Shown: in pieces, positions 53,750-62,885 of the stretch
Layout: each line of letters opens with the position of its first letter
Numbering within the stretch: the stretch's first letter is position 1
Assembly: GCF_022869805.1 (NCBI RefSeq)
Contig: NZ_CP094974.1
Location: 3,906,001 to 3,970,000 of the forward strand
From: Halosolutus halophilus
GTDB taxonomy: Archaea; Halobacteriota; Halobacteria; Halobacteriales; Natrialbaceae
Direction: 5' to 3'
Length of the DNA stretch: 64,000 nucleotides
Translations under genes and position numbers: made by a program
Notes under the pieces: model-generated
Databases searched by the model: none
Seen by the model: the letters and a program-made list of their open reading frames with translations, nothing else
Told to the model about the DNA's origin: nothing

Positions 53750-55273
53750 TCAGGCGAGCCAGTCGGCGAACGACCCCTCGAGGAGCGTCTCGCGCTGGTG
53801 GTCGACGTAGCGCCGTTGCGTGCCGGCGATGGCGTCCGCGAGCGACGCGCCGTCCGCGAGTCGGTCCGCCACGCGGCGACGCTTCCACGCGGCGGGGGTC
53901 GTGCCGTGCTCCAACCGCGCCGACAGGGGCTCGAGATAGCGATCGATCGTCGCCTCGTCGAGTCCCCGGGTCTCGAGGCCGTCCCGCACCGCCGCGAGGA
54001 GTTCATCGTAGAGTCGGCTCCGATCGGTCGTCGGTTCGCCGTTGCTGTCGATCCACGTTAGCTCCGCGTCGAGGCCGTCGCGAACGGCGGCGTAGAAGTT
54101 CTCGCGCGCCCGCTCCCACGAGAGGGTTCCGACCGGGTGGTCGCGCCGGGGGAGGCTCTCCATGAGCCCGGCGAACGCCGCGAGGAAGGCGACGCTGTCG
54201 CGGACGGTCGGCTGGGCCGGAAGCGGCCGGAACTCGATCCGCGCGTTCGCCGCGGCCTTCGTCGGCGCGTCGAAGACCGGCCGGACCCACCGCCAGTAAC
54301 TCCCGTGTTTGTACTGGAGGTGCCGGTACCGATCGTCGAACCGGCCGCGATCCGCGAGTTCGTCCGGGACGATCGGGGGATCCGCCGCGATGCGATCGAT
54401 ACACTCCGCGACGCTCTCGACGTCCCGGGGGAAGCGGACCTTGGGCGGGACGTCCGCGTCGTCGGGCGGGTTCATCACGCTCTCGAAGACGCCGATCCGG
54501 TGTTCCATCCGGCCGTCGGCGAGCACCGCGTCGGGATCGGCGTCGTCCGCGTAGAGTTCGGGCGGGAAGAACGGCGAGTTCACCCCGAGCGCGAGCAGCG
54601 GCCCCGCCACCCGGATCGCGTACCGGAAGTACTCCGGGAGATCCGGCGCGTGCGGGACCTGATAGTGGGGCTGGATCGACGTGATCAGCGACTCGAGGCC
54701 GACGGTCTCCGCCGACAGGTCGACGTGGGGCGCGTCGAGTTCCATCCCGGCGGGATACGGCGCGTTCGACATCGCCTGATAGCGAACGTCGTCGCTCACG
54801 TTCGTCGAGACCGTGATCCCCTCGCGATCGACGGTGTCGGTGAGATAGCGACGCGCGGACTCGCCCGTCGGCGGGGTCGTCCACATGCCGTCGCTGACGA
54901 GGTCGATCCCCTCGGTTCGCGTCCGCTCCCGCGCGGCCGCGAGCCGCGCCTGTACCTCCCGGTGCTGGGCGGCCAGCCCGTACGCGTTCAGCGGCTGCGG
55001 GCTGGTGTTCATCTCCGCGTTGTGCAGTCCCATCTCCTTGCCGAACCCGATGAATCGCAGTAACCAGCGCGGGACCCGACGCAGTGCGGCCGTCTCGCGA
55101 TCGACGCCGTATAACTCGTACTCGAGGCCGACGATCGCCTGCGGGTTGTCGAAAATCCCCTCGCGAACGTCGGCCTCGAGCCGCCGGGCTTCGGCGTCGA
55201 CGCGCTCGCCGAACCCCGCCGGGTCCGTCGCGATGATCTCCCTGACGTCGTCGACCAGTGCCGAGTCGATCAT
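53750..55273 (-). CDS. glutamate-cysteine ligase family (GCS2-like) protein
   Basis: A 507-residue protein of the carboxylate-amine ligase fold. The ATP/substrate motifs are VGLEYELYGVD near 48-58, KEMGLHNAEMNTSPQP near 79-94 and ARIEFRPLPAQP near 341. The family joins glutamate to an amine with ATP; haloarchaea use gamma-glutamylcysteine as their main thiol, so that product is possible, but this longer type may have another role. It converges with the stress protein gene, 36 bases apart. Confidence 0.8.
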   Translation of the reverse strand: MIDSALVDDVREIIATDPAGFGERVDAEARRLEADVREGIFDNPQAIVGLEYELYGVDRETAALRRVPRWLLRFIGFGKEMGLHNAEMNTSPQPLNAYGLAAQHREVQARLAAARERTRTEGIDLVSDGMWTTPPTGESARRYLTDTVDREGITVSTNVSDDVRYQAMSNAPYPAGMELDAPHVDLSAETVGLESLITSIQPHYQVPHAPDLPEYFRYAIRVAGPLLALGVNSPFFPPELYADDADPDAVLADGRMEHRIGVFESVMNPPDDADVPPKVRFPRDVESVAECIDRIAADPPIVPDELADRGRFDDRYRHLQYKHGSYWRWVRPVFDAPTKAAANARIEFRPLPAQPTVRDSVAFLAAFAGLMESLPRRDHPVGTLSWERARENFYAAVRDGLDAELTWIDSNGEPTTDRSRLYDELLAAVRDGLETRGLDEATIDRYLEPLSARLEHGTTPAAWKRRRVADRLADGASLADAIAGTQRRYVDHQRETLLEGSFADWLA

Positions 55274-55403: not shown

Positions 55404-55565
55404 ATGGACAGAGGACAGAACAGCGGTGGGCTGATGTCCAGTGCCGGACTCGTCCGGTACTTCGACTCCGAGGACTCGAACGCCATCCGTATCGATCCGA
55501 AGACGGTCATCGCGTTCGGCGTCATGCTGGGCGTACTGGTCCAGTTGCTGACGTTCGTCTCGTAA
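55404..55565 (+). CDS. secG: preprotein translocase subunit Sec61-beta
   Basis: A 53-residue protein, ATG 55404 to TAA 55565. The N-terminus [18 protein letters not shown] and the single C-terminal helix (about 34-53, [19 protein letters not shown]) are characteristic of archaeal Sec61-beta, the small third subunit of the SecYEG translocon. It is easily missed because of its size. It is divergent from the GCS2-like gene. Confidence 0.95.
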
Positions 55566-55637
55566 CGTCGGCATCACCCACCTTCTCGCCAATCGCGCAC
55601 CGAGCACGACGAGCGCCGGCCGTCTCGCGTGGACCGA

Positions 55638-56219
55638 CTACCCCCGAACGCCGGGTTCGTCCGCCGTCGCCGGAGCGGCGTGGGACTGTCCGCGAAGGTA
55701 TCGCTCGCCGCGTCGCGTCAGCCGATACTTCCCCCGTTCGACCTTCTCGACGAGCCCGTGTGTCTCCAGTTCGATCAGGCGACGGTTCACCTCTTTTCGG
55801 CTGAACCCGGTGTTGAAGGCCACGATCGACGGCGCCAGGACGAGGTCCGTGCCGTGGAACGCGCCGAGGATCTCGTCGTCCATCGGCGTCATCCACTCGG
55901 CCGGCCGGCGGATGCGGGACGGCTCGCTCAGGAGCGCTCGGTTCCACGCCGTCGTCCGCACGTCGTTCGCCACGGGATCGTAGAGGCCCAGGACGACCAG
56001 CAGCGCGGCGATCCCGTGGATCCAGTGGACCAGCGACGGCGCGACCAGTTCGGCCACCGGCCCGCCGATCACGGCCAGGACCAGTCCGGCGACGGTAACG
56101 AGCACGAACCGCCGGTACGCCGTCGTCGACGCCTCGAGCGAGAGGAAGTACAGGAGTTCGAGGGAGACGACGATTCCGATCGCCAGATTGTACCAGGCGA
56201 AGGGGGTCAGTCCGTCCAC
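55638..56219 (-). CDS. membrane-embedded winged-helix regulator
   Basis: A 193-residue protein in two parts. The first 100 residues hold three transmembrane helices (about 9-29, 38-58 and 62-82). Residues 108-180 are a winged helix: MDDEILGAF, then FNTGFSRKEVNRRLIELETHGLV in overlapping parts, then the wing KYRLTRRGERYL, close to haloarchaeal PhiH1-type HTH domains. A membrane-tethered transcription factor is the simplest reading. The start overlaps the preceding gene by 13 bases. It converges with secG. Confidence 0.82.
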   Translation of the reverse strand: MDGLTPFAWYNLAIGIVVSLELLYFLSLEASTTAYRRFVLVTVAGLVLAVIGGPVAELVAPSLVHWIHGIAALLVVLGLYDPVANDVRTTAWNRALLSEPSRIRRPAEWMTPMDDEILGAFHGTDLVLAPSIVAFNTGFSRKEVNRRLIELETHGLVEKVERGKYRLTRRGERYLRGQSHAAPATADEPGVRG

Positions 56220-56527
56220 GAGGCCTCACCTCCCGATCGAGTCCGGCGGAGTTGGCGGTGCCGGAGTATCAGCAACCCGAGGAAGATCGCGATGACCGTG
56301 TTCACCGCGCTCCGGAGCACGTGAAGGGCCAGCGATTCCGGACCCGCGACGAGCAGCATCGTGTGGTAGATCGTCAGGGCGACCATCCCGAGCGAGAGGA
56401 GGGCGATCGCCGTCCCGAAGGGGGAGTTCCGGAAGATGCCCCAGGACAGGAGCGCGAACACCCCGGCCCCGGTACCGGCAACGATCGCGAAGGGGACCCC
56501 GAGGAGGTGGACGACGGAGTGGGTCAT
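56207..56527 (-). CDS. small three-helix membrane protein, regulator partner
   Basis: A 106-residue membrane protein with helices at about 9-30, 38-60 and 68-88 and a basic then acidic tail (RHRQLRRTRSGGEASWTD). Its 3' end overlaps the winged-helix gene start by 13 bases, so they are coupled. It resembles the membrane half of its partner in layout and may form a sensing unit with it; no enzymatic motif is present. It is divergent from the Cys-rich protein gene (276 bases). Confidence 0.75.
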   Translation of the reverse strand: MTHSVVHLLGVPFAIVAGTGAGVFALLSWGIFRNSPFGTAIALLSLGMVALTIYHTMLLVAGPESLALHVLRSAVNTVIAIFLGLLILRHRQLRRTRSGGEASWTD

Positions 56528-56803
56528 AGCGCGGGCTACAGTTCCGGGAGCCGTTAACCTGCGGCCTGTGATTTCAGTGGTGCGACGACGCGGGAATCGG
56601 ACCGACGACGGGCTATCCGACCGTGTCGAGTCCGATCGCTCGCCGGCGAACCCGACGCGCCAGCCGGCGGTAATTCGTCGTAACCCCGTCCTCACCGATC
56701 GGTCACACCGCCGCGCCCGTCGCGGATTTTGTCCCTCACCGTTCGGTCGGCGCGTCGTGGGAAGCGGCTAACAAAACGGATCGCGGTCCTCCGATCGACC
56801 GCA

Positions 56804-57157
56804 ATGGCACTGACCCAGATCGACCACGTGAGCGAGAACGAGGAGATGCAGGAGTGTATCGACAGCTGTTTCGAGTGCGTGCAGGCCTGCGAGTGGTGTG
56901 CCGACGAGAGTGCCGACGACGGCGAGGAGATGGCCGAGTGTCTCCGGCTCTGCCGGGACGTCGCCGACCTGGCGGAGATGCACGCACGGTTCATGGCCCG
57001 AAACTCCGGCTACAGCTCCGATCTCGCCGCGATCACCGCCGACGCCTGCGACGAGTGCGCCGACGAGTGCGAGCAACACGATCACGAGCACTGTCAGGTC
57101 TGTGCGGACGTCCTCCGGGAGTGTGCAGAGACCTGCCGGAACATGGCGTCGGCCTGA
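56804..57157 (+). CDS. Cys-rich four-helix copper-binding protein (DUF326/Csp-like)
   Basis: A 117-residue protein with 14 cysteines, mostly as Cx2C and Cx3C pairs along helices (C18, C22, C25, C29, C32, C46, C50, C82, C85, C89, C97, C100, C107, C111). This is the layout of DUF326 four-helix bundles such as bacterial copper storage proteins Csp, which hold many Cu(I) ions. No signal peptide, so a cytosolic Csp3-type store is inferred. It begins the module with the SPW, GH15 and VKOR genes. Confidence 0.9.
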   Translation: MALTQIDHVSENEEMQECIDSCFECVQACEWCADESADDGEEMAECLRLCRDVADLAEMHARFMARNSGYSSDLAAITADACDECADECEQHDHEHCQVCADVLRECAETCRNMASA

Positions 57158-57273
57158 GACCGCTACGGTCGCGATTCGTCGTTCCGATCGCCACTCGCTC
57201 ACGATCGGATCGAACGCGAGCCACGACCGACTCGAACGCGAGCTACGATCGCCGCACATGCGAACTCGAGACC

Positions 57274-57657
57274 ATGGACGCGACCACGAGATGGACCGCC
57301 GTCGGCAACGGCGCCATCGGCTGTTGGCTGCTCGTCGCTCCGATCGTCTTCGACGCGCCAGCGATCGGTCGGTGGAACGACGCGATCGTCGGCGCCGTGA
57401 TCGTCCTCGTGGCCGGCACCAACTACGCCAGAGCGACCAGACGGCGCCCCGCGAGTGCGATCGGATCGGGACTCGTCGCGATCCTGGGGCTCTGGCTCGT
57501 CGTCGCGCCGTTCGCGCTCGGCTTCGAGGGAGTGGCGCTGTGGAACGACGTCGTCGCGGGGACCGTCGTCGCGAGCTTCGCCGGCTACAACGCGTACGTC
57601 GCGACCCTCGCCGGCACCGAGTCGTCCCTTCGTATGACTGCCAAAAAGAGACCGTGA
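57274..57657 (+). CDS. SPW-repeat membrane protein
   Basis: A 127-residue membrane protein with four helices arranged as two SPW repeats: WLLVAPIVFDAP near 18-29 and GLWLVVAPFALGFEG near 70-84 are the repeat cores (the pattern is small-Pro-Trp like). Function of SPW proteins is unknown. It sits 117 bases after the Cys-rich gene and 76 before the GH15 gene on the same strand. Confidence 0.85.
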   Translation: MDATTRWTAVGNGAIGCWLLVAPIVFDAPAIGRWNDAIVGAVIVLVAGTNYARATRRRPASAIGSGLVAILGLWLVVAPFALGFEGVALWNDVVAGTVVASFAGYNAYVATLAGTESSLRMTAKKRP

Positions 57658-57732
57658 TGGACCGATATGGACGAATCGTCTGGCGATCGGAGACCGATCC
57701 GTGCGCGAACCGATCCGAGATCGCAAGTGACC

Positions 57733-59664
57733 ATGGAATACCAACGACTCGAGGACTACGGTGCTATCGGTGACGGAAACACCGTCGCTCTCGTCGGCCG
57801 TAACGGCTCGATCGACTGGTGTCCGTTCCCGCACGTCGAATCGCCCAGCGTCTTCGCCGCGCTGCTGGACGCCGATCGCGGCGGGCGGTTCGCCGTTCGA
57901 CCGACGCAGTCGTTCGAGTCCGTCCAGCGGTACCGCGATCGGACCAACGTCCTCGAGACGACGTTCCAGACCGCAGGCGGCACCGCGACGGTGACCGACT
58001 TCGTGCCCGTCGCCGAAGCGACCGGGGCGGACGATCCGCCCGCAGTCTACCGGAAACTGGACTGTGACGACGGGCCGCTCGAGTTCGAGGTCCAGTTCGA
58101 GCCGCGATTCGACTACGCGCGGGACGTACCCGCGGTCGACCCGGCGACCGACGGCGCGACGGGCGACGGCGTCGTCGCGATCGGCGACGACGAACGGGCC
58201 GTCCTCTCGAGCGACGTCCCGCTCGATCCGTCGGCCGACGGGCACGGGGCGAGCGCGACGGTGACGATCGAGGCCGGCGAGACGCGCTGGCTCGTCCTGG
58301 GGTACGACGCGGCGATTCCACTCGAGCCGTCGTGCCACCGGGAGACGCTCCGGGACACCGTCGACTACTGGCGAGAATGGATTCACGATTGCGACGGGGA
58401 GAACTGTCCCGTCGGCGGGCCGTGGCACGATCTCGCGGTTCGATCGTCGCTCGTTCTCAAACTCCTCATCCACCGCGAGACGGGCGCGGTGTGTGCGGCC
58501 CCGACGACCTCGCTGCCGGAGGACCTCGGCGGCGTCCGCAACTGGGACTACCGATTCAACTGGATCCGCGACGCGGCCTTTACGGTCAGGGCGCTGTCCG
58601 AACTGGGCCACCTGGCGGAGGCGCGATCGTACTTCGAACTCTGTCTCGATCACTGTCGCAAGCACGATCCCGGGGCGGTTCCGCCGGTCTACGGCCTCCA
58701 CGGCGAAGACGTCCCCGAGGAGCGGACCCTCGATCACCTCAGCGGACACGGCGGTTCGGCCCCCGTGCGCGTCGGGAACGCGGCGAAGAACCAGCACCAG
58801 CTCGACGTCTACGGCGAGTTGATCCTCGCGATCTACGAGAGCGTCCGCTACGGCGAACCCGTGACGACCGACGACTGGGCGGTGATGTGCGATCTGATCG
58901 ACTACGTCTGTGAGGGGTGGGACGAGCCCGACGCCGGCATCTGGGAGGTTCGGTCCGACTACGAGCAGTTCGTCTACTCGAAGGTGCTGTGCTGGACGGC
59001 GCTCGACCGCGGGATCAAACTCGCCGAGGCCGCCGGCGACGACGTGTCGGCCCCGGTCGATCGCTGGCGGGCGTGTCGTCGGAACGTCCGGGACGCGGTC
59101 CTCGAGCGCGGATACAGCGAGCGTGCGAACAGTTTCGTCCGGGCGTTCGGCGACGAGGAGACGCTCGACGCGGCGAATCTGCTCGTTCCGGTCGTCGGCT
59201 TCCTCCCTCCCGACGACGATCGCGTCCAGGGGACGATCGACGCGACGATCGACCGACTGACGACCGACGACGGCCTCGTGCGGCGCTACGAGGGCGACGA
59301 CGGGCTCCCCGGCGAGGCGAGTCCGTTCGCCGTCTGTTCGTTCTGGCTCGTCACCGCGCTCGCGTTATCGGGACGGACCGCCGACGCGACCGAGCGGTTC
59401 GAACGGCTCCTCGAATACGCCAGTTCCCTCGGCCTGCTCGCCGAGGCGATCGATCCTGACACCGGCGAACAGCGGGGCAATTTCCCCCAGGCGTACAGTC
59501 ACATCGGGCTCCTCAACGGCGCGCTCTACCTCGGAAACGCGGCCGGTTCGAGCGAGGCGTCACCGGCCCCGCTCGGCCTCGACGAGTCGCTCGACGCTGC
59601 CGCGTCCGGCGGGGAAATCGTCCGCCAGTCGAACGACACCGAACGAGAGACACCAGGCCAATGA
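57733..59664 (+). CDS. glycoside hydrolase family 15 (glucoamylase/trehalase type)
   Basis: A 643-residue enzyme with the usual GH15 N-terminal beta-sandwich (to about 240) and a C-terminal (alpha/alpha)6 barrel. Landmarks: IGDGNTVALVGRNGSIDW near 10-27 in overlapping parts, NWDYRFNWIRDAAFT near 270 and DAGIWEVR near 402-409 with a catalytic Glu. There is no signal peptide, so it would act on an internal sugar such as trehalose or maltooligosaccharide. Similar GH15s pair with SPW and dehydrogenase genes in other prokaryotes, as I recall. Its last four bases overlap the next start. Confidence 0.93.
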   Translation: MEYQRLEDYGAIGDGNTVALVGRNGSIDWCPFPHVESPSVFAALLDADRGGRFAVRPTQSFESVQRYRDRTNVLETTFQTAGGTATVTDFVPVAEATGADDPPAVYRKLDCDDGPLEFEVQFEPRFDYARDVPAVDPATDGATGDGVVAIGDDERAVLSSDVPLDPSADGHGASATVTIEAGETRWLVLGYDAAIPLEPSCHRETLRDTVDYWREWIHDCDGENCPVGGPWHDLAVRSSLVLKLLIHRETGAVCAAPTTSLPEDLGGVRNWDYRFNWIRDAAFTVRALSELGHLAEARSYFELCLDHCRKHDPGAVPPVYGLHGEDVPEERTLDHLSGHGGSAPVRVGNAAKNQHQLDVYGELILAIYESVRYGEPVTTDDWAVMCDLIDYVCEGWDEPDAGIWEVRSDYEQFVYSKVLCWTALDRGIKLAEAAGDDVSAPVDRWRACRRNVRDAVLERGYSERANSFVRAFGDEETLDAANLLVPVVGFLPPDDDRVQGTIDATIDRLTTDDGLVRRYEGDDGLPGEASPFAVCSFWLVTALALSGRTADATERFERLLEYASSLGLLAEAIDPDTGEQRGNFPQAYSHIGLLNGALYLGNAAGSSEASPAPLGLDESLDAAASGGEIVRQSNDTERETPGQ

Positions 59665-61145
59665 GCGACGAGAGACACCACGACTCGAACGACGAATCGA
59701 CCGCCGTGACGACCGACGGACGAATACGGGACTCGCGGACCGACGACGGTGGAAACGGCGACGAGAGCGGCGATCGGAACGGCGAGGACGACGGCTCGAT
59801 GCGGCCGGGCGACATGATGCTCGCCCACCCGACGGAGGAGATCTGGCCCCAGTACGCCATCATCTCGCTCGGGTTCTGGCTCCTGGCGAGCACGCCGACG
59901 CTGGGGTACGAGAGCGCGCTGATGCGGTGGAACGGCATCGTGAGCGGAGTCGTCCTCATTGCGCTGGCCGGCCTCACGATCTACCGGGAGAGCGGCTACG
60001 CAAACTACGCCAACGGCTTCGTCGGCCTCTGGCTGGTGTTCTCGCCGATCGTGTTCTGGGCGCCGACGGCCGCGGCGTACGCCAACAACACCCTCGTCGG
60101 CATCATGGTGATGACGTTCTCGATCATCATCGTGATGCGCTCGGAGATGGACGGCCCGACCGTTCCCCCGGGCTGGTCGTACAACCCCTCGACGGGCGCA
60201 CAGCGCGCCCCGCTGATCGCGCTCGGGATCTTCGGCTTCTTCGCCTCGTGGTACATGGCCGCATTCCAGCTGGAGTACATCAGTAGCGCGTGGGATCCGC
60301 TGTACGGCACGGGCACCGAGCAGATCCTCACGTCGAAGGTGTCGGCGGCGTTTCCGGTTTCCGACGCCGGCCTCGGCGCGGTCGCCTACTCGATCGAGGC
60401 CCTGATGGGATTCATGGGCGATCGGCGACGCTGGCGCACGATGCCGTGGATGGTTGCCTTCTTCGGCGTCGTCGTGATTCCCCTCGGGTTCGTCCAGGTG
60501 CTGCTGGTCATCATGCAGCCGATCATGGTCGGGACCTGGTGTACCCTCTGTCTCCTGTCGGCCTTCGGCATGCTGTGGATGATCTCGCTGACGGTCGACG
60601 AGATCGTCGCGATGGGCCAGTTCCTCGTCCGGCTGATGCGACAGGGCGACAGCCTCTGGACCGCCTTCTGGATGGGCGGGACGTTCCCCGAAGCGGAGTC
60701 CGGCGTCGACGAGACGACGGCGCGGCCGATCGACGACTCCCCGATCCGCGAGCCGTTCTGGGGCGTCTCGATCCCGTGGACGCTGCTGGCCGCGATGGCC
60801 CTCGGCGTCTGGCTCATGCTCTCGCCGACCGTCTTCGGGACGACGGGGCTCATGGCCGACAGCAGCCACCTGATCGGCTCGCTGGTCGTCTCGTTCACCG
60901 TGATCGCGACCGGCGAACCCGCCCGGGCAGTCCGGTTCCTGAACGTCCCGCTGGCCGGGTGGATCATCGTCGCTCCGTGGCTGCTCGCCGGTGTCCCGAC
61001 GATCGCCGCGATCAACGCCACCGTCGCCGGCGCGCTCGTCCTGGTCCTCAGCGTTCCGCGCGGCCCGATCGCGGACCGCTACGGCGGCTGGGAGCGCTAC
61101 GCGACCGTCGAGACGGTCGATCGACTGAATCCCCTCAGTAGCTGA
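59661..61145 (+). CDS. SPW-VKOR-SPW membrane fusion protein
   Basis: A 494-residue membrane protein. After about 60 disordered acidic residues come SPW-repeat helices (about 63-160), then a vitamin K epoxide reductase-like four-helix core (about 183-320) with the redox pair C294-T-L-C297, then a second SPW block (about 370-465). The periplasmic loop Cys pair found in ordinary VKOR is absent: the loop near 215-245 has no cysteine. The CxxC could pass electrons between a disulfide and a quinone. The start overlaps the GH15 stop by four bases. Confidence 0.85.
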   Translation: MSDERHHDSNDESTAVTTDGRIRDSRTDDGGNGDESGDRNGEDDGSMRPGDMMLAHPTEEIWPQYAIISLGFWLLASTPTLGYESALMRWNGIVSGVVLIALAGLTIYRESGYANYANGFVGLWLVFSPIVFWAPTAAAYANNTLVGIMVMTFSIIIVMRSEMDGPTVPPGWSYNPSTGAQRAPLIALGIFGFFASWYMAAFQLEYISSAWDPLYGTGTEQILTSKVSAAFPVSDAGLGAVAYSIEALMGFMGDRRRWRTMPWMVAFFGVVVIPLGFVQVLLVIMQPIMVGTWCTLCLLSAFGMLWMISLTVDEIVAMGQFLVRLMRQGDSLWTAFWMGGTFPEAESGVDETTARPIDDSPIREPFWGVSIPWTLLAAMALGVWLMLSPTVFGTTGLMADSSHLIGSLVVSFTVIATGEPARAVRFLNVPLAGWIIVAPWLLAGVPTIAAINATVAGALVLVLSVPRGPIADRYGGWERYATVETVDRLNPLSS

Positions 61146-61147
61146 CC

Positions 61148-62188
61148 ATGTCCGAATCCACCGTATCCGAAGCCGAACCCACCGAATCCGAAGTCGTCGT
61201 CGTCACGGGCGCATCGGCCGGCGTCGGGCGAGCCACCGCTCGCGCGTTCGCCGAACGCGGCGCGAAAATCGGCCTGCTCGCGCGGGGCGAGGACGGCCTC
61301 GAAGGCGCGCGCGAAGACGTCGAGGCGGCCGGCGGCGAGGCGATCACCGTCCCGACCGACGTGGCCGATCCCGACGCGATCGAGGCCGCGGCCGAAGCCG
61401 TCGAGGAGACGTTCGGACCGATCGACGTCTGGGTGAACAACGCGATGGTGTCGGTGTTGTCGCCGTCCGCGGAGATGACCGCCGACGAGTACCGTCGCGT
61501 CACCGAGGTCACGTACCTGGGATACGTCTACGGCACGCAGGCCGCGCTCGATCGGATGCGCCCGCGCGACGAGGGGACGATCGTCCAGGTCGGTTCGGCG
61601 CTTGCGTACCGCGGCATTCCGCTCCAGTCCGCCTACTGCGGGGCGAAACACGCGATCCAGGGGTACACCGAATCCGTGCGGACGGAACTCATCCACGACG
61701 ACTGCGACGTGCAACTCTCGATGGTACAGATGCCCGCGATGAACACCCCGCAGTTCGAGTGGGCGAAGAGTCGATTGCCGTGCGAGCCACAGCCGGTACC
61801 GCCGATCTACCAGCCCGAGGTCGCCGCCCGCGCGATCGTCTGGACCGTCGATCACGGACGGGACGAACTGTGGGTCGGCTGGCCGACGCTGAAGGCGATC
61901 CTCGGCAACCGACTCGTTCCGCGGCGACTCGACCGATACCTCGCACAGGGGGGATACGACGCCCAGCAGACCGACGAGCCCGTCGACCCCGATCGAGAAC
62001 ACAACCTCCGCGACCCGGTCTCGGGGGATTTCGGCGCTCACGGCCCGTTCGACGAGCGGGCCCGCGATCGAAGCCTGCAGCTCTGGGCGGCCGTGCATCG
62101 ACGAACGATCGCCCTGGTCGCCGGCCTCGCGGCCGCGGTCGTCGGCGCGGTTCTCGGTCGGCGCGTCACGGCGTCCGGTCCGGATTGA
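61148..62188 (+). CDS. membrane-anchored short-chain dehydrogenase
   Basis: A 346-residue oxidoreductase. Motifs: TGASAGVG at 20-27, NNAM at 97-100 (usually NNAG), S150, Y163 and K167. After the catalytic domain (about 250 residues) an extra 70 residues end in a transmembrane helix (about 318-336, IALVAGLAAAVVGAVLG), so it is tail-anchored. It starts two bases after the SPW-VKOR stop. The substrate is unknown. Confidence 0.9.
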   Translation: MSESTVSEAEPTESEVVVVTGASAGVGRATARAFAERGAKIGLLARGEDGLEGAREDVEAAGGEAITVPTDVADPDAIEAAAEAVEETFGPIDVWVNNAMVSVLSPSAEMTADEYRRVTEVTYLGYVYGTQAALDRMRPRDEGTIVQVGSALAYRGIPLQSAYCGAKHAIQGYTESVRTELIHDDCDVQLSMVQMPAMNTPQFEWAKSRLPCEPQPVPPIYQPEVAARAIVWTVDHGRDELWVGWPTLKAILGNRLVPRRLDRYLAQGGYDAQQTDEPVDPDREHNLRDPVSGDFGAHGPFDERARDRSLQLWAAVHRRTIALVAGLAAAVVGAVLGRRVTASGPD

Positions 62189-62261
62189 GCTACACGGAAC
62201 CCGGCCGAGTCACGCGCGAAACCTCGTAAGGTAGTTGAACGGCCCGTCCATAGCGGAGCGC

Positions 62262-62885
62262 ATGACACTGGTTGCGGGCGTCGTCGCCGTCCAGGGCGAC
62301 GTCGCGGAACACGCGGACGCCATCGAGCGGGCGGCACGGGCGCACGGCCACGAGGTTACGGTACGCGAGATCCGCGAGTCCGGGATCGTCCCCGACTGCG
62401 ACCTGCTCGCGATGCCCGGCGGCGAGTCGACGACCATCTCCCGACTCGTCCACAGCGAGGGGATCGCCCCGGAGATCCGCGCGCACGTCGACGCCGGCAA
62501 GCCGCTGCTCGCGACGTGTGCCGGGCTGATCGTCGCCTCGACCGACGCGGGCGACGATCGGGTCGACGAACTCGGATTGCTCGACGTGAGCGTCGAGCGA
62601 AACGCCTTCGGCCGCCAGAAGGACAGCTTCGAGGTGCCGCTGTCCGTTTCCGGTCTCGCCGACGACGAACCGTACCCGGCGGTGTTCATCCGGGCCCCGG
62701 CGATCGACGCGGTCGGGGAGTGCGAGGTGCTCGCGACGTGGGACGATCGGCCGGTTGCCGTCCGAGACGGGCCGATCGTCGGCACCGCCTTCCATCCCGA
62801 ACTGACCCCCGACAGCCGGATTCACGGGCTCGCCTTCTTCGAGAACGACGACGCGTCGGTACCGGCGGGAGAGGAGATACACTGA
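62262..62885 (+). CDS. pdxT: pyridoxal 5'-phosphate synthase glutaminase subunit
   Basis: A 207-residue class I glutaminase that supplies ammonia to PdxS in vitamin B6 synthesis. Motifs: GVVAVQGDVAEH near 6-17, MPGGESTT near 51-58, nucleophile C86 in LLATCAGL, and the pair H178 and E180 in TAFHPEL. The start at 62262 matches the usual N-terminus MTLVAGVVAVQGD. pdxS is not in the window. Confidence 0.95.
   Translation: MTLVAGVVAVQGDVAEHADAIERAARAHGHEVTVREIRESGIVPDCDLLAMPGGESTTISRLVHSEGIAPEIRAHVDAGKPLLATCAGLIVASTDAGDDRVDELGLLDVSVERNAFGRQKDSFEVPLSVSGLADDEPYPAVFIRAPAIDAVGECEVLATWDDRPVAVRDGPIVGTAFHPELTPDSRIHGLAFFENDDASVPAGEEIH

Follow-up and report, generated by a model that had tools for sequence, protein, structure and literature searches.

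In the window, the whole 64,000-nt stretch of DNA that was analysed, two overlapping minus-strand genes, here called REG and PARTNER, lie divergent from a run of plus-strand genes (Table 1). The first-pass annotation had described both genes and a divergent Cys-rich/SPW/GH15/VKOR/SDR set. Both ORFs were found where it had placed them, and the divergent genes, here identified as DUF326 (CYS), SPW, GH15, SPW-VKOR and SDR, agree with its description. The PARTNER stop and the REG start share 13 nt (56207-56219, minus strand), with the GTG of REG lying inside the 3' end of PARTNER, an arrangement predicted to couple the translation of the two genes. The best start of PARTNER is the ATG at 56527; a longer ORF reaching to 56695 is not conserved.

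Table 1. Coordinates of the features at the REG/PARTNER locus
Feature	Position in window	Strand	Description
REG	55638..56219	-	193-aa predicted membrane-anchored regulator, start GTG 56219
REG domains			TM helices 6-29, 36-59, 61-84; linker helix 87-98; winged helix 112-175 (residues, AlphaFold2)
PARTNER	56207..56527	-	106-aa membrane protein, three hydrophobic segments (hydropathy)
Predicted operator, upstream copy CCTCACCGATCGGTC	56690..56704	+	
Predicted operator, promoter-proximal copy CCTCACCGTTCGGTC	56734..56748	+	34-35 nt upstream of TATA-like element
TATA-like element CTAACAAAAC of DUF326 gene	56768..56777	+	
CYS	56804..57157	+	predicted target, 117-aa Csp3-type cytosolic copper-storage protein (DUF326)
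Small SPW-like membrane protein	57274..57657	+	after CYS; in 21/47 loci
GH15	57736-59664	+	optional cassette
SPW-VKOR	59661-61145	+	optional cassette, fusion protein
SDR	61148-62188	+	optional cassette

Hydropathy analysis of REG gave three hydrophobic segments, in agreement with the three membrane helices of its AlphaFold2 model, in which the winged helix (residues 112-175) has high pLDDT. Residues 103-182 matched the PhiH1 repressor-like structure 3b73 (E=1.9e-6), and Foldseek matched the winged-helix fold of the model to the same structure. The protein also matched PHROG 2440 (transcriptional regulator) with E=4.6e-20. Against the Pfam family HVO_A0261_N (PF25213), REG scored 29.4 bits, below the gathering cut-off of 35; by sequence it appears related to this PhiH1 repressor-like family, yet it is not filed there. 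In the search for a known fold of the membrane half, Foldseek against the PDB returned only winged-helix or poor matches, none below E=0.001, and such an assignment was rejected.

PARTNER scored 18.0 bits against Phage_holin_2 (PF23778; cut-off 32), stayed below every Pfam cut-off and had no match in NCBIfam or PHROGs; its assignment to the holins or another named family was rejected on these scores. Its nearly invariant residues are R33-S35-P36-F37-G38, Met48, and Tyr54-His55 at the outer end of TM2. The initial description of one protein with three membrane helices and a PhiH1-like winged helix, overlapping a small three-helix membrane partner, was thus borne out for both chains (hydropathy for both; AlphaFold2 and the 3b73 match for REG).

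Searching 293 genomes of the order yielded ~30 REG homologues containing the membrane half; further ones, almost all from haloarchaea, came from scanning named genomes. They occur in Haloterrigena, Natrinema, Halobiforma, Natronococcus, Halovivax, Haloarcula, Halostella and others, in some cases on plasmids. The comparison set comprised 47 distinct haloarchaeal REG loci. PARTNER directly adjoins REG in 45 of these; the other two are a truncated contig (L073) and a locus with a weakly similar (33%) three-helix PARTNER (L071). In six loci (L066, L067, L068, L069, L070 and L072) REG and PARTNER form a single fused ORF. The stop-to-start spacing of unfused pairs with intact reading frames ranges from -13 to +6 nt across genera; the -13 overlap recurs in seven relatives (L045-L049, L051, L074), and the other intact unfused pairs are spaced at -4 to +6. 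Because the two ORFs are conserved across genera within this range, we regard both as genuine genes. A PARTNER profile search produced 33 matches in 32 genomes, all of them beside or fused to REG or a REG-like membrane half. This comparative evidence indicates that REG and PARTNER act as a unit, and we infer that the two subunits are in contact.

The first divergent gene, CYS, encodes a protein with 14 Cys that starts MALTQIDHV and has no apparent signal peptide. It scored 36.4 bits against DUF326 (PF03860; cut-off 20.4), and residues 15-115 matched the structure of B. subtilis Csp3 (5fig, E=5.9e-16). Csp3 tetramers bind ~80 Cu(I) each, and the proteins confer protection from copper (PMC5171941). 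With its bundle match to a solved structure, its richness in Cys and no export signal, CYS is classed by sequence as a Csp3-type copper-storage protein, with Cu(I) binding predicted. At 30 of the 47 loci, a DUF326 gene and the pair are divergently oriented. Ten further loci carry a DUF305 gene within 2 kb, five divergent and five convergent, and PF03713 (DUF305) was confirmed in four of the five divergent ones. In Synechocystis, the DUF305 protein CopM binds copper and plays a part in resistance to it (PMC4335983). Thus, a DUF326 or CopM-like DUF305 gene lies within 2 kb of the pair at 40/47 loci. A Cu-type P-ATPase gene is found near 12/47 loci and a Lrp-TRASH gene near 3/47; a cupredoxin gene adjoins REG in L071, and the neighbours in L053 include genes for a Lrp-TRASH regulator, an ATPase and a CopZ-like protein. 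Five loci (L062, L063, L076, L165, L167) have no recognised copper gene nearby. None of these copper-related neighbours was seen at nine PhiH1 relatives that consist of the winged helix only. Judged from these neighbourhoods, the constant companion of the pair is the first divergent gene (DUF326), or a CopM-like DUF305 gene, plus the promoter element described below. Note that in L053, L054, L055 and L155 the copper-storage gene is followed by, or gives way to, a gene for a DUF4396 membrane protein that has a cell-wall-binding domain.

The promoter of the DUF326 gene contains a TATA-like element (consensus (A/C)TAACAAA), which in every relative starts 33-35 nt ahead of the ATG. A motif, YCTCAYYRNTY, was present 34-35 nt upstream of this element in 23/23 pair-linked DUF326 promoters (a count that includes the window and one decayed pair), with a second copy 41-44 nt further upstream in most of them. 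At unlinked DUF326 genes, 39/41 promoters lacked the motif at that position, and unlinked paralogues within the same genomes also lacked it, ruling out a general DUF326 promoter element. The two exceptions are extra DUF326 copies in a single genome (G255) that bears the pair elsewhere, which suggests action in trans. For an earlier count (23/0 versus 2/36), Fisher's test gave p=8e-15, with relatedness ignored. The motif also precedes DUF305 in L069 and L070, and in L072 with a variant first base. At the convergent DUF305 loci (L059, L161-163, L179) YCTCAYYRNTY was not found, ruling it out as the operator there. A composite pattern searched in 27 genomes gave 36 matches, mostly at these promoters, as compared with 3 for the reversed control. 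In the window's genome the composite element occurs only once, at the DUF326 promoter, which speaks against a wider regulon there. The predicted winged helix of REG would be the binder of YCTCAYYRNTY. A position upstream of the core promoter is the usual place for archaeal activators; activation is therefore favoured over repression.

Two minor observations concern related promoters. Locus L075 (G293, of the same genus as the window) retains the copper-storage gene and an intact element together with a decayed PARTNER and no REG, as in a locus losing its regulator. The unlinked DUF326 genes of L078, L080, L082, L085, L086 and L087 share TTGCA ~18 nt before TTGAT upstream, a sequence pattern that suggests another regulator for the core copper-storage gene.

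Alignment of the two membrane proteins pointed to a candidate sensor site. REG His65 and His68 (HWxHG, at the start of TM3) are present in 33/33 aligned sequences. PARTNER His55 is present in 31/32, the exception being the decayed copy in L075, and Met48 in 28/32. The alignments of REG and PARTNER contain no conserved Cys. The AlphaFold2 model of the natural fusion in L072 has five TM helices followed by the winged helix (pLDDT 81.5, pTM 0.53); TM2 carries His55 near its end, and His129/His132 lie where TM5 begins. pTM values are modest (0.53, 0.47) and the models are monomers. With the winged helix in the cytoplasm, His55 and His129/His132 would fall on the outer side. REG His65 and His68 and PARTNER His55 are thus predicted from the model to lie at the outer membrane face, where we propose a metal site common to both proteins. 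Copper is the likely ligand, judging from the neighbouring genes.

A rare form of the two-protein membrane module without the winged helix was found in G027, G056 (L208) and G176 (L209), with the HxxH and the partner YH kept. Its neighbours are a PCNA-like gene in L209, and tRNA-synthetase and DUF7347/DUF7351 regulator genes in L208; the module has no copper context in the three genomes. Since the His are conserved there in the absence of copper genes, the ligand of the His site may be another one, or its range of ligands broader.

We consider it reasonably probable that the pair is a two-subunit transmembrane regulator that probably senses copper and acts on a copper-storage promoter. REG and PARTNER would constitute one transmembrane one-component regulator divided between two chains. 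The sensor would be formed by the membrane helices with REG His65 and His68, PARTNER His55 and perhaps PARTNER Met48 near the outer face, most likely binding copper, or another soft metal, coming from outside. Metal binding would alter the position or dimer state of the cytoplasmic winged helix of REG, which would occupy the YCTCAYYRNTY sites next to the divergent promoter, on its upstream side. The consequence, most likely activation as judged by site position, would be expression of the Csp3-type gene, or of the CopM-like DUF305 gene in other species, so that a copper-sequestering protein would be made when copper is present. More tentative, and somewhat short of an even chance, is the proposal that the pair represents a new archaeal class of metal sensor, with a three-His copper site at the outer face spanning two three-helix proteins and joined to a winged helix. 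If so, the cell would read copper outside the cytoplasm and turn on cytosolic storage without a kinase or cytosolic sensor.

The same promoter might instead be controlled in response to another signal, such as the redox state of heme or quinone, oxygen, or thiol/disulfide stress. The His would then serve as heme ligands, and the copper-storage protein would be one among several outputs under stress. His pairs in membrane helices can indeed bind heme, SPW-VKOR and SDR genes follow the target in the window and 10 other loci, and the homologues that lack the winged helix retain the His with no copper genes beside them. However, the outputs that vary between lineages (DUF326, DUF305, Cu-type ATPase, cupredoxin) share copper rather than redox enzymes, and HxxH on one helix with a lone His on another would be an unusual heme site. 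We regard a non-copper signal as unlikely. It is less likely again that another regulator, for example a cytosolic Lrp-TRASH protein, binds the element while the pair only modulates or does something else. Lrp-TRASH is the known haloarchaeal copper regulator (PMC3551603) and its genes are close to three loci, but it is nearby in those three of the 47 only, and the element tracks the pair and not the DUF326 gene (23/23 versus 2/41).

The first-pass annotation had proposed that the pair could be a regulator of the whole Cys-rich/SPW/GH15/VKOR/SDR set. Its core proposal, a membrane-tethered regulator with an obligate small partner that probably controls divergent genes, is retained here; the whole set as target is not. 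The genes behind DUF326 lie on the same strand with gaps of about 116, 78, -4 and 2 nt, could form one transcript, and in the window GH15, SPW-VKOR and SDR may be co-transcribed behind the DUF326 promoter. This cassette (57736..62188) is found in 11/47 pair loci. The pair is conserved without it in the other 36, against the expected co-occurrence with the whole divergent set, and 13/21 SPW-VKOR copies do not adjoin a pair (8/21 do). In the window's genome, moreover, the element is found only at the DUF326 promoter. The cassette was accordingly rejected as a dedicated target, being present at a minority of the pair loci and often found without the pair, and control of the whole set is the most improbable of the explanations considered.

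Membrane-bound one-component regulators (transmembrane transcription regulators, TTRs) are a recognised class (PMC10269533); ArnR and ArnR1, which control motility and surface structures, are archaeal examples (PMC6396743). REG combines on one chain a predicted DNA-binding domain (3b73, AlphaFold2, PHROG 2440) and at least one predicted transmembrane region (hydropathy, AlphaFold2), and on these sequence features the REG/PARTNER system is assigned as a new TTR variant with predicted control from the membrane. It resembles TTRs and ArnR/ArnR1 in being a one-component system in which a DNA-binding domain is combined with membrane helices and acts, here by prediction, from the membrane. However, the HTH of ArnR/ArnR1 is N-terminal whereas the winged helix of REG is C-terminal, the sensor of REG/PARTNER is divided between two proteins or made as a fusion, and the genes linked to it are copper genes. 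The text of the TTR survey (PMC10269533) makes no mention of copper or metals. The 111-residue chain of 3b73 covers the winged-helix region only, to which REG adds a conserved sensor half with three TM helices. In ToxR/ToxS and TcpP/TcpH, a membrane regulator is likewise encoded alongside a small membrane partner. Those regulators are single-pass with large periplasmic domains, whereas REG and PARTNER have three helices each and almost no outside domain, and naturally fuse.

Among copper regulators, the haloarchaeal Lrp-TRASH protein VNG1179C is cytoplasmic and controls a CopA-type ATPase and CopZ-like chaperones (PMC3551603). It belongs to the same organism group and shares the role in copper homeostasis that we infer for the pair. 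It consists, however, of a Lrp HTH and a TRASH domain, and the AsnC-type HTH and TRASH domain of such regulators were found in neither REG nor PARTNER. The two-component system CopRS controls copM in Synechocystis (PMC4335983). No regulator like REG/PARTNER was described for Csp3 or CopM/DUF305 in the papers found, and searches of the open-licence literature turned up neither a PhiH1-type membrane regulator nor PARTNER, nor any regulator of archaeal DUF326 genes. The earlier remark that no system of such make-up is described agrees with this search, and the pair is a candidate membrane-based copper sensor of a hitherto undescribed kind. Regulation of cytosolic copper-storage proteins has been little described, and the experimentally studied haloarchaeal copper regulator in the papers found is the cytosolic Lrp-TRASH protein. 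The present system is testable, as it supplies a defined sensor pair, a predicted three-residue ligand site, predicted operator coordinates and a predicted target, and the natural fusions provide it as a single chain for structural studies.

A 6.6-kb block of the window that runs from REG to SDR (55566-62261) lies between the genes for Sec61beta (55404-55565) and PdxT (at 62262). Since the Sec61beta and PdxT genes are adjacent, about 100-190 nt apart, in the relatives L082, L094 and L096, the block looks like an insertion into a core locus. Plasmids that carry copies related to it include those of Natrinema zhouii and Halostella pelagica. Just beyond Sec61beta, the interval 53750-55273 encodes a distant relative, below cut-offs, of glutamate-cysteine ligase/carboxylate-amine ligase. 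The cassette of GH15, SPW-VKOR and SDR is itself conserved in 19/293 genomes, mostly without the pair.
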